Shown piece by piece: positions 24,891-64,000 of a stretch of 64,000 bases of DNA. This DNA is from Thiogranum longum (lineage in GTDB: Bacteria; Pseudomonadota; Gammaproteobacteria; DSM-19610), in assembly GCF_004339085.1 (NCBI RefSeq), contig NZ_SMFX01000001.1:2054242-2118241 (forward strand), given 5' to 3'. A program made the translations under genes and the position numbers. Below the pieces are notes generated by a model. That model was given only the letters and a program-made list of their open reading frames with translations, did not search any database and was not told the DNA's origin. The first letter of the stretch is position 1. Each line of letters begins with the position of its first letter.

Positions 24891-24977
24891 GCCGGGGTGG
24901 CGGAACTGGTAGACGCGCCGGATTCAAAATCCGGTTCCTTCACGGGAGTGTGGGTTCGATTCCCACCCTCGGCACCA
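24891..24977 (+). tRNA. tRNA-Leu (anticodon CAA)
   Basis: The 7-bp acceptor stem GCCGGGG/CCTCGGC (one G-U pair) is followed by an encoded CCA. The D-arm has TGGTAGAC. The anticodon stem CCGGA/TCCGG encloses the loop TTCAAAA with CAA at 24925-24927. A long class II variable arm and the T-loop GGTTCGATTCC follow. It reads UUG leucine codons. It stands alone, 24 bp upstream of the glgP start, and may share a primary transcript with glgP. Confidence 0.97.
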
Positions 24978-60960: not shown

Positions 60961-61171
60961 CGAAACCGGTTTGCAATATTTCTATTATTTACAGTTGGTT
61001 ATAGATGCTTAATTTTCGTGCGACAGAGTTTTGACTAAATTGACACCTATCAGCCGACGAAAGTCTGGCTGGGTAAGGTGAAAGAAAGGGTGGAGAATTT
61101 TGTAATCAGCTCACCAGTACTGTCCTGACTGGCAGCTTCCTTTCAGTGAATGGTGGTTGAAATCGTCACGA

Positions 61172-61348
61172 GTGAGGCACTTTTTCACCGTCAACGGTTT
61201 GCCCGCTACGCGGGTTCCCTGCGCTTCTCGCGACAGGTGGCGCGATTCCAAACTCGCGGTTTCTGCGAAACCACTCAAACAGGGATCGCTTCTTCCACCT
61301 GTCACTGCGATGCTCGGCTGCACCGAAGCCGGTGAAAAAGTGCCACAC
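61172..61348 (+). repeat. Structured repeat, copy 1
   Basis: Terminal arms 61172-61190 and 61330-61348 are inverted repeats matching at 18 of 19 positions. Inside are a hairpin CCCGC-TAC-GCGGG (61202-61214), a hairpin TCGCG/CGCGA (61228-61232, 61241-61245) whose 8-base loop ACAGGTGG is exactly complementary to CCACCTGT at 61295-61302, and a hairpin GGTTTC-TGC-GAAACC (61258-61272). The core (about 61193-61327) recurs inverted at 63.3-63.5 kb. The frames open across it are by-products of the repeat. Together with the sigma-54 promoter and the terminator, this accounts for part of the gap between fliL and the secreted-protein gene; 60961-61171 shows nothing else I recognise. Confidence 0.85.
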
Positions 61349-61420
61349 CCGTAACTTGTTCGGTGCATGCCCTGTGAATGACCGTCTTCGGCCACAACCG
61401 GACCTTTAGCGTAATGCAAA

Positions 61421-61442
61421 ACGGCGACCCGAAGGCCGCCGT
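61421..61442 (-). terminator. Rho-independent terminator of the secreted-protein gene
   Basis: Read on the minus strand, a GC-rich stem of nine pairs with one mismatch closes a UUCG-type tetraloop and is followed by TTTT. It lies six bases after the stop codon of the 470-aa gene and points away from it. Confidence 0.75.
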
Positions 61443-61448
61443 CTATAG

Positions 61449-62861
61449 TTATGGCTCCGGCTCCCCTCTACACCTACCTGTTGTTGTGTCGAACCAAGGT
61501 CCGGCAGTAATACACGAGCTATCGTATACCATCATATGAGGATGGAGCGGGGCTGTTCCAGTATCACAGTTCCCACCGTTGTCACAGTCGGTTTCAACAA
61601 AGGTATCAGCGCCCTGAACTGAAATTATATCAGGCGGCGTATCACTCTGTGGCCATTGAAACGGTGACTGGATCGGATTACTTGAAGTGGATGCGGCCCT
61701 TTTAGCAATACCGTTCCCCGAGGCGGCGACATTGAATGCCGTGTCCACGATATGAGCTTTCGCATCTTGTACGGTTACTATACCCGATACGCTAATATCA
61801 GTACTAGCTGACCCATTCGCTATGGCACTTATGATGCCGCCGTGCATATGGAACGTACTATTTGCCGTTGCTTTAACTCCGTTGATGCAACAACCGCCGC
61901 CAAATGTCGCCCCAACTTCAGTAATACTACGTACCGCCGAACCAAATACTTGCATTGTCGCGCTGTCAATGAGCTCTATTGCCACGCTGGTGCTTGTCCC
62001 TGAAACAGTTGCAATAGCATTTATCTCGCCTCCATAAAACCAGTGTTCGCTGAAACACTCGTTTAGAAAACCCTTAATAGTCACGCCGCCTTTTGCTGTC
62101 ACTTTGGAGCCAAACCAATAGTGAATCGGCCGGTTTGATTTCGGTGCACAGAGACCGTTACCGGCACCCCCATAATCCCACCAACCAAAAACACTTGAAA
62201 TAGAACCAATTCCCTCTGCCAATACTTCCACGTTTGAGTAAGAAGAGCTCCCAGCGCCACTCCAAATGACACCAGCCGTTACGTCTCCATTTGCACCGCC
62301 CGGTGTTGCTTTGATCTTTAGATCCTGAACAGACAAATTATCACAATCGTGCCCCCACAGTTCCGGCATAATAGTATTGTCGCGCCCAGATCCTCTGTAC
62401 GTAATATGTCCTACCTCCCAGCACTCAAAGAAAGCACCTTGTTCGATAAAATTACCTGGCCCGATATCGACCAGTAAAGGCGAGTTAACACTCGGCTTTG
62501 GCTGTCTAACGAAGTGAATCCAGTTATCGAGAACGCCGAGAGATGTAAAACAGTCATCGAGGGTTCCGCAATCCTTGCGAAGCTGTACGACAGCAGCATC
62601 AGCATTAATTACTGGGGTATGTAGCGTTGTAATTCTACTGTCGATAGCCGCAATATCACCTTCGGCCGTCGTAATCCTACTTTCGGCCGCCGAAATATCA
62701 CTTTGTGCCGTTGCAATATCACCTTCTGCCGTTGTAACTCTACCTTCAAGGGCCTCCAATTCCGGATCATGTGTTGCGAACGAAATAAGCGGCATTGCTG
62801 TTAAGAGCGCTATCGTAAGTAGTTTTCCTAAATATGAGTTTATATTCATTAGTGTTTTCAT
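61449..62861 (-). CDS. Secreted protein with N-terminal coiled-coil repeats, function unknown
   Basis: A 470-residue protein with a signal peptide (about residues 12-29, cleavage near SFA). Residues 36-80 repeat blocks such as RVTTAEGDIATAQ and RITTAEGDIAAID, an 11-14-residue periodicity suggesting a trimeric coiled coil or stalk. The rest has short beta-strand-like Gly/Ser/Thr repeats with TVSG, ITKG-like turns and about a dozen Cys, resembling a right-handed beta-helix passenger. GGAGG four bases before ATG 62861 is a strong ribosome site. Codons are more A/T-rich than in neighbours, suggesting transfer. No enzyme motif is visible; adhesin-like or phage-tail-like roles are guesses. Confidence 0.75.
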   Translation of the reverse strand: MKTLMNINSYLGKLLTIALLTAMPLISFATHDPELEALEGRVTTAEGDIATAQSDISAAESRITTAEGDIAAIDSRITTLHTPVINADAAVVQLRKDCGTLDDCFTSLGVLDNWIHFVRQPKPSVNSPLLVDIGPGNFIEQGAFFECWEVGHITYRGSGRDNTIMPELWGHDCDNLSVQDLKIKATPGGANGDVTAGVIWSGAGSSSYSNVEVLAEGIGSISSVFGWWDYGGAGNGLCAPKSNRPIHYWFGSKVTAKGGVTIKGFLNECFSEHWFYGGEINAIATVSGTSTSVAIELIDSATMQVFGSAVRSITEVGATFGGGCCINGVKATANSTFHMHGGIISAIANGSASTDISVSGIVTVQDAKAHIVDTAFNVAASGNGIAKRAASTSSNPIQSPFQWPQSDTPPDIISVQGADTFVETDCDNGGNCDTGTAPLHPHMMVYDSSCITAGPWFDTTTGRCRGEPEP

Positions 62862-63153
62862 GCATCCTCCATAATGACGTGATTTAGCCCAACCTCAGGC
62901 AATGGTTGTAACAAACTTCAGATGGGAACTACGGAACTGCTGGGGCTTATTCTAGACCCCTGAAAGCAGAGTACTTATAAGGAGTTTGAAAGGCAAACGC
63001 GCATAAGTCGGTCATGCAAGTCTGTATGCGATTTTCTTGGGAGGTGTGCAATTCTAGTTAAATCCCGAATGACCGTTTAGGGTCGTACCCTGCCTGTTGA
63101 AGGAACCACGGGCATTCTGAGCTATCCAATGGGCGGTTTACCGGCGACTTCCC

Positions 63154-63199
63154 GTCATTGCGGTGCCTTGACCCGCAAGGGTAAGGTACCCGTAATGAC
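63154..63199. repeat. Imperfect 46-bp palindrome with GTCATT/AATGAC ends
   Basis: GTCATT at 63154-63159 pairs with AATGAC at 63194-63199. The centre is ACCC-GCAA-GGGT (63171-63182) flanked by CCTT/AAGG with a one-base bulge. The ends match those of the palindromes at 8514-8548 and 11192-11206, suggesting one dispersed family. Confidence 0.55.
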
Positions 63200-63328
63200 A
63201 TGAGAAGGACGAATTCGGATCGTTTCCGGAAGTACATGCAAACAGGACTCACTGAATACCAGGACGTGGATTCCAGCTTATATCGGAATGACGTAAGTGA
63301 GCGCGAAGAATCTGCCGCAAAGTTTCAG

Positions 63329-63521
63329 GCGCTGGCTTGCCGGGGTTTTCCGGTTCGTCGGTGCAGCCGAGCATCGCAGTGACAGGTGGATGAAGCGATC
63401 CCTGTTTGAGCGGCTCACGCTGTGAGCAGCGAGTTTGGGGTCGCGCCACATGTCGCGAGAAGCGCAGGGAACCCGCGCAGCGGGCAAACCGTTGAACCGG
63501 AAAACCCCGGCAAGCCAGCGC
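63329..63521 (-). repeat. Structured repeat, copy 2 (inverted relative to copy 1)
   Basis: The terminal arms 63329-63356 and 63494-63521 are a perfect 28-bp inverted repeat, unrelated in sequence to the arms of copy 1. The core between them, read on the minus strand, matches copy 1 over about 135 bp with few changes. It includes CCCGC/GCGGG (63472-63484) and TCGCG/CGCGA. The internal hairpin here is GCTCAC-GCT-GTGAGC (63413-63427) instead of the GGTTTC/GAAACC stem of copy 1, at nearly the same place. Confidence 0.88.
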
Positions 63522-63613
63522 TATCACCGCAACCTGCAATCTTTACAGGAATGTGTTTATTGTCTGGAGACTACTTCACTACGTTCGCAGTGATGCGGGC
63601 GGGAAGAATAAAC

Positions 63614-64000
63614 TCAGTGTGTGGAGTGTGAAAGCCACTCGCGGAAACCGGCATCCGGCAGCGGTTTGCTGATGTAGAAGCCCTGCACCAGGTCACAACC
63701 CAGACCCTTCAGTTGTTCGCGCACTCCCTGGGCTTCAACACCCTCGGCGACAACCTTGCAATTCAGGTTATGTCCCAGTTCGATAATAGAACGCACAATG
63801 GCAACATCACGCGGGTCATTGGCCATATCCTGCAGGAAGGACTGGTCAATTTTCAGGGTATTGATGGGGAGACGCTTGAGGTACGACAACGAGGAATAAC
63901 CCGTCCCGAAATCATCAATGGCTATTGAAACGCCAAGCTTGCTGAGTTCTTCCAGGATGCCTGCGCCATGATCAAGATCCGCCATCAGGGTATCTTCTGT
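63614..64000 (-). CDS. EAL-domain protein, C-terminal part (5' end outside window)
   Basis: The last 128 residues of a cyclic-di-GMP phosphodiesterase-type EAL domain. Visible motifs are IAIDDFGTGYSSLSYLKRLP (the Asp-Asp-Phe-Gly metal/substrate region), LKIDQSFLQDM with the catalytic Lys, VVAEGVEAQGV with the conserved Glu, and QGFYISKPL near the end. The frame continues through base 64000, so upstream domains (often PAS, GGDEF or sensory) are unseen. The conserved residues visible suggest an active enzyme. Confidence 0.95.
   Translation of the reverse strand, partial: TEDTLMADLDHGAGILEELSKLGVSIAIDDFGTGYSSLSYLKRLPINTLKIDQSFLQDMANDPRDVAIVRSIIELGHNLNCKVVAEGVEAQGVREQLKGLGCDLVQGFYISKPLPDAGFREWLSHSTH

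Follow-up and report, generated by a model that had tools for sequence, protein, structure and literature searches.

A widespread and apparently uncatalogued family of folded intergenic elements, seen from a pair of copies in Thiogranum longum

What kind of element occupies the interval between fliL and an EAL-domain gene in Thiogranum longum? The interval lies in a stretch of 64,000 nucleotides (hereafter the window; contig NZ_SMFX01000001.1, positions 2,054,242 to 2,118,241), and it holds two inverted copies of a structured repeat. An original prediction, made from the sequence alone, saw in these copies a fold under selection with a possible pseudoknot, and offered a non-autonomous mobile element, a retron- or IS200/IS605-like single-stranded fold or a structured RNA as their nature. 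That view survives in part: the selected fold and the mobile element are supported, the IS200/IS605 likeness and the pseudoknot are not. The reading that we put first, and hold tentatively, takes the copies as two halves of a single unit, which belongs to a repeat family that is dispersed and resides in chromosomes. Such a unit would be a non-autonomous mobile repeat, REPIN-like, with ends that act in folded, single-stranded form. The family of intergenic elements is widespread and apparently uncatalogued.

The fold and its selected strand

Copy 1 occupies positions 61165-61355, with its folded strand (arm to arm) on the minus strand, and copy 2 occupies 63329-63521, folded on the plus strand. 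That the two are inverted and nearly identical in their cores is confirmed, since 61182-61326 and 63358-63504 match in opposite orientation over 76 nt (89%) and over 56 nt (96%). Their folding energies have z-scores of -8.9 for copy 1 and -10.5 for copy 2, none of 200 dinucleotide shuffles being as good in either case. The arms are 82% complementary in copy 1 (61165-61198 with 61322-61355) and 94% complementary in copy 2 (63329-63362 with 63488-63521). They contain helix P1, formed in copy 1 by the outer arm GGCACTTTTTCACCG (61176-61190) and the inner arm CGGTGAAAAAGTGCC (61330-61344), and in copy 2 by the inner arm 63329-63356 and the outer arm 63494-63521.

We drew the structure on an alignment of 31 copies from this genome and its relatives, and built from them a covariance model, R1, which matches copy 1 at 61181-61341 on the minus strand (167.3 bits, E 2.2e-46) and copy 2 at 63343-63505 on the plus strand (175.6 bits, E 8.6e-49). 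A single half spans a multi-helix fold of 130-190 nt, consisting in order of the arm P1, P2, hairpin P3, the imperfect helix P4, P5, P6 with its tandem G.A, and hairpin P7. On the plus strand of copy 2, P3 is the hairpin CCCGC-GCA-GCGGG at 63472-63484, P5 joins 63379-63389 to 63446-63456, and P7 lies at 63410-63430, with a GA/GA at its base that appears conserved by eye. The reported change of an internal stem from GGTTTC/GAAACC to GCTCAC/GTGAGC is real, and that stem is P7. The tandem G.A of P6 is found in about two thirds of the copies (21 and 20 of 31), and internal loops are conserved among copies. The pseudoknot did not hold up: the pairing of ACAGGTGG with CCACCTGT exists, but it is nested, being helix P5 itself (11 pairs, with P6 and P7 inside it), which pairs in 339 of 341 cells of the 31 copies, against 72 of 155 for the local hairpin needed to place ACAGGTGG in a loop.

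Each half is a conserved fold, and selection on it is supported. In the 31 aligned copies 36 of the 52 pairs have changed on both sides, and the covariation score is 0.549, compared with 0.157 when shuffled and 0.08-0.13 when slid. In 78 named loci outside the training set, L330 and L383 being left out as coming from genomes already used, R1 detects another 109 copies of this fold at E<=1e-9. In an alignment of these copies that is fitted to R1, and hence leans to the model, 47 of the 52 pairs have changed on both sides; the score of 0.514 compares with 0.120 after shuffling and 0.05-0.07 after sliding. Covariation outside the training set, which the original prediction proposed to look for in a larger alignment, is present in this model-fitted form. 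One P4 position that is UA in 29 of the 31 copies is GC in 30, UA in 29, AU in 26 and CG in 22 of the wider set.

Were a double-stranded cruciform selected, G.T would be as common as A.C on one strand. On the folded strand, which is opposite to the one first read for copy 1, we count 44 G.U against 6 A.C pairs in the 31 copies; in 77 non-redundant copies of the wider set the counts are 132 and 49, and sequence by sequence 49 have more G.U and 10 more A.C. The wider-set counts come from an alignment fitted to R1, which was itself trained on this strand. Sign tests that ignore kinship give 3e-8 for 44:6, 5e-10 for 132:49 and 3e-7 for 49:10. Because G.U exceeds A.C on one strand, a single strand seems to be selected, as RNA or as single-stranded DNA, and not a symmetric cruciform.

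This excess is also where the main rival to our reading begins, namely that the halves are transcribed on the folded strand and function at the RNA level, whether in end formation, in trans or otherwise, their dispersal being secondary. The tandem G.A in P6 and the conserved internal loops speak for such an RNA as well. The strand counts themselves fit RNA and single-stranded DNA alike, as single-stranded DNA too tolerates G.T, and the window unit shows no excess of promoters (2 found, 3.2 expected). The sole gathering-level Rfam match in the window is a tRNA at 24891-24974; no match up to E 1 was obtained in ten loci of this genome, and looser searches of 10 and 12 loci placed no copy above a gathering score. 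TwoAYGGAY (RF01731) matches inside one copy, at L260 712-780 in genome G143, with 34.4 bits where the gathering score is 43 (E 0.035); the match is sub-threshold, and the window and the ten loci of this genome have none. Presence of the repeats, moreover, differs among sister genomes at the same sites. We consider the RNA account possible, and somewhat doubtful.

The arms bear on a second rival. Random unpaired flanks elsewhere would have told against the original prediction, and the arms of other copies are in fact paired: in most copies in this genome the outer arms are unlike in sequence yet mutually paired. L006 and L007 have the same arms, L003 and L004 have one arm in common, and the arms of L004 are partly broken. 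Outside the genus and G091, P1 appears by eye to be short in many copies, which carry a tail hairpin of TTTCTTTTGGTTACTTTTCTTTGG type in place of the long arm. The unit upstream of argG looks inherited in genomes G007 and G016, and in its left copy the 164 nt between the outer arms are identical. The changes inside this copy are confined to a patch of 7 bp in one arm and the patch that pairs with it: three pairs differ on both sides, one G-C has become G.T and one A.C has become G-C. In this one case, the clustered change looks more like copying from arm to arm than like separate point changes. Such a pattern is what favours the view that template-switch repair keeps these DNA palindromes paired and that their fold has no function. 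An excess of G.U over A.C is not expected from repair between arms, which would leave the strands symmetric; the conserved internal loops also tell against this view, as do the right halves at these two loci, which appear to differ much more, and we judge it unlikely.

Sites, pairs and passengers

By BLASTN and by the sequences, the block at 61076-63615 between fliL and the EAL gene is absent from G012 and other sister genomes. Eight loci were compared; six hold both flanks, and all six are empty. G012, 83% identical here, has only about 115 bp instead of the block, the interval is short in G006, G001 and G002, and it measures about 1.1 kb in G010 and about 0.55 kb in G007. No BLAST match to the copies occurs in any of these six intervals; G009 and G016 hold one flank only. 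Likewise, a unit at metG/rsxA is missing in all seven genomes compared (of nine matched), and a unit at a third site in all five genomes with both flanks (of seven matched). Upstream of argG, 14 genomes of the genus divide into six with copies and eight with no significant copy; the argG units are of mixed type, and only those of G007 and G016 were treated as one inherited insertion. Since the compared sister genomes lack them at three sites, we take the units to be insertions. Copy number and the empty sites, including those at argG, suggest that they are mobile, in keeping with the non-autonomous element first proposed. A spacer motif of the metG/rsxA unit is present also at the unoccupied G012 site, and as a shared motif it may suit two separate insertions.

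The further suggestion that a core inserts into pre-existing palindromes is highly improbable: the arms do differ between most copies and one of 18 empty sister sites (the third site in G011) holds a long unrelated palindrome with 31-bp arms, but conserved sequence is also found outside the arms, and the other 17 sites have no inverted repeat with arms longer than 11 bp. The G011 palindrome (L457 1350-1540) is 62 bp long (ATTGGGGTCAGAGCACATAT...) and unlike the window arms.

A preference for convergent genes was considered and dropped. A crude rule, wrong for at least one unit (L032), gave 17 of 32; a better ORF rule gives 7 of 27, the 28 units (short G130 loci and some others being left out) comprising 7 convergent, 17 same-direction, 3 divergent and 1 one-sided. 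Because of this revised count, location lends no support to our reading.

Orientation is more regular. Among 150 copies listed in 12 genomes, a lower bound, neighbours lying within 5 kb of each other are head to head in all 38 cases, their folded strands outward, and in 80 named loci 39 pairs are outward and 8 inward. The count covers the listed copies and loci with at least two matches, leaving out four weak or distant matches (L307 5649, L344 5155, L350 3288 and L315 472). The inward pairs come from Luteimonas, Stenotrophomonas nitritireducens, Pseudoxanthomonas, Xanthomonas and another Lysobacteraceae record; taxonomy look-up places Luteimonas and Stenotrophomonas in the Lysobacteraceae, to which the Pseudoxanthomonas and Xanthomonas carriers belong as well. 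One pair of S. maltophilia is outward (L307). Outside the Lysobacteraceae the 3' end of the folded strand points outward at both ends of the unit. Hexamer-like short tandem repeats border the inward Lysobacteraceae pairs (L305 3800-3934 and 4440-4570; L316; L368). Gaps within pairs are mostly below 350 bp, five in the 12 genomes being 0.9-3.8 kb, and 5 of the 13 copies in the T. longum genome have no partner within 5 kb.

In genome G130, all 13 listed pairs join one half of each of two types, with a mean distance of 0.066 within types and 0.327 between them. Within the genus of T. longum, 7 of 10 pairs consist of two unlike halves by core and 3 do not, the window pair among the latter (L011, with one half incomplete, was left out, and L032 and L033 represent one inherited site). 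By core the window pair is A+A, and its flanks look by eye like B and A: copy 1 has an A-like core with B-like flanks, and copy 2 is of type A in both. Also by eye, the outer end GGTGGTTGAAATCGTCACG adjoining copy 1 (61152-61170) resembles that of the B-flank copies L001, L006, L007, L009, L010 and L012, the inner flank CGTAACTTGTTCGGTGCATGC (61350-61370) carries the B-flank motif RACTTGYTCNGTGC, and the inner flank AATCTGCCGCAAAGTTTCAG of copy 2 (63309-63328) is an A-flank motif. Between both copies, positions 63270-63293 hold a remnant of another dispersed repeat (ATTCCAGCTTATATCGGAATGACG). Terminal inverted repeats are clear in G130, where the inverted ends of a unit lie about 560 bp from each other, roughly GCTRGTG...CACYAGC by eye, and short and partial in the genus of T. 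longum. No target-site duplication was seen by eye in the G130 flanks. Extra copies of a terminal motif, GCTGGTGTCGGTTTCGGCC, lie outside the G130 units, in the flanks of L232, L235 and L238.

The window pair encloses a 470-aa ORF (61449-62861, minus strand) as a passenger. It matches no Pfam family, has a coiled-coil stretch resembling tail-needle gp26, and has homologues in 3 of 16 other genomes of the genus. It was rejected as a constant partner: none of six homologue loci has a copy within 1.5 kb. The ORFs between wide pairs are mutually unrelated. A 192-aa ORF matches Pfam Ion_trans_2 above the cut-off; ORFs of 261, 136 and 315 aa have no match above the cut-off in Pfam and NCBIfam, nor has one of 131 aa in NCBIfam, and a wide pair of G010 holds what is presumably an IS-like remnant. 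Six translated ORFs of the repeats have no Pfam family except GIY-YIG in one.

Distribution and known families

A BLASTN search, the check first advised for this locus, found further copies in the 2,916,906-base, one-contig genome, and R1 brings the total to 13 (E<=0.001). BLASTN matches occur in 9 of 17 genomes of the genus. Across the class, at least 55 of 369 sampled genomes and at least 47 of 271 genera are positive at E<=1e-4, a lower bound with seven candidates scored per genome; G091 holds 34 copies. An exact pattern occurs in at least 120 stretches of genome contigs, 80 of which were scanned with R1. Carriers among the matches listed include Stenotrophomonas, Luteimonas, Lysobacter, Variovorax, Dechloromonas, Zoogloea, Silvimonas, Marinobacterium, Methylophaga and Desulfobulbaceae, among others. 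The named carriers are Gamma- and Betaproteobacteria with a few desulfobacterial contigs, the classes of Luteimonas, Dechloromonas and Desulfobulbaceae being from taxonomy look-up.

Very few copies lie on plasmids, phages or viral contigs. Three queries found no match among plasmids; a Variovorax query found four plasmid records, of which one is a Variovorax replicon of 2.5 Mb (37% covered) and the other three are short spacer matches. Phages gave no match. In viral contigs a 14-base pattern proved too loose, and the specific pattern that replaced it has one match, a real copy of 123 bits.

Two enzymes were tried as general partners and rejected. Y1_Tnp (PF01797) has no match in this genome and is present in 30 of 38 other positive genomes, the eight without it being G091, G112, G117, G246, G307, G316, G045 and G021. 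Only one strong copy (L284) neighbours the 40 Y1 loci scanned of 104 matches, with weak copies at L299, L294 and L298. A group of Y1 transposases of about 178 aa (MxYRR..PGG..YFFTV; L284-L303) occurs in many positive genomes, one of them 200 bp from a copy (L284). For GIY-YIG, 30 loci scanned of 90 matches gave one strong neighbour, with one more by coordinates; such genes lie about 230 nt from a copy in G012 (L498 / L043) and about 0.5 kb from one in G143 (G143:C1:316216-316437).

Miniature inverted-repeat elements (MITEs) and mobile insertion cassettes are non-autonomous, have inverted ends and can enclose passenger genes. The present units would be non-autonomous too, can enclose genes, and have clear inverted ends at least in G130; they differ in that no target duplication was seen, no related IS was identified and the ends carry a strand-specific fold.

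In the open-licence literature searched, including PMC3733652, PMC4666352 and PMC2267715, we did not meet the family. Like REPINs and BIMEs (REP doublets moved by RAYT), it is short, many-copy, chromosomal and arranged in inverted pairs. In contrast to REPs, which PMC3733652 gives as 20-40 bp, its halves are multi-helix folds, those of G130 are of two unlike types, and no link to a RAYT was found. Inverted doublets are thus present; this genome and eight other positive ones lack a RAYT, and a 20-40 bp hairpin with a GTAG or CGTC tag is lacking, CGTC being visible by eye in some B flanks only. As to gene 3' ends, the convergent fractions are those given above for the crude and the better rule. 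The family is REPIN-like at genome level but fails the defining tests of REP, and for this reason we do not file it as REPIN.

That it is nevertheless a REPIN/RAYT element of IS200/IS605 type would suit the inverted pairs and many copies, and tyrosine transposases do have self-complementary terminal repeats (PMC3733652). With PF01797 absent from this genome and eight other carriers, and one strong copy beside the 40 Y1 loci scanned, we give this idea, and with it the IS200/IS605 likeness first suggested, very little credence. The same paper, PMC3733652, describes TIRYT ends as inverted, partly self-complementary and in dimers, and names S. maltophilia. By description our repeats are alike in these respects, and S. 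maltophilia carries both (L307); they are unlike in that the 40 Y1 loci scanned have one strong copy nearby. The TMECO intrastrand triplex (PMC4666352) consists of a hairpin with a matching third arm and also occurs in inverted tandem pairs, as do the repeats here, and has a G/C-rich CCCTCNCCC motif as against the TTTCTTTTGGTTACTTTTCTTTGG tail of many distant copies.

Weighing the preferred reading

In our preferred reading, the unit would be a non-autonomous mobile element working like a REPIN. An enzyme provided in trans would recognise its ends in their folded, single-stranded state, and the space between the halves could hold foreign genes. The arms would perhaps turn over fast, one arm being rewritten with the other as template, as the single argG case suggests. 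The evidence for this reading comprises the 13 copies, the empty sites, the covariation, the G.U excess, the uniform orientation of the 38 neighbours, the unlike halves and inverted ends of G130, and the compensated arm change. Against it must be set that no mobiliser was found, Y1_Tnp being missing both here and in G091 with its 34 copies. The lack of a visible target-site duplication, the unpaired copies in this genome, the three own-genus pairs that are not unlike, the metG/rsxA spacer motif at an empty site, the eight inward pairs, and the near-absence from plasmids, phages and viral contigs weigh on the same side.

A bolder form of the reading, which we think rather unlikely as a whole, is that chromosomes of Gamma- and Betaproteobacteria carry a mobile or mobilisable unit of a new class. 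Its ends (unlike at least in G130) would be recognised only as folded single strands, 3' ends outward, it would be able to capture single genes, and its enzyme would not be of the tested Y1/RAYT or GIY-YIG types.

A fold kept across Gamma- and Betaproteobacteria, with neither an enzyme nor an RNA family identified for it, points to a single-strand mobile system or an RNA that has so far gone unrecognised. Both readings become testable through the covariance model and the empty sites, and in the arms nature provides a case where selection on pairing might be told apart from the repair of palindromes.
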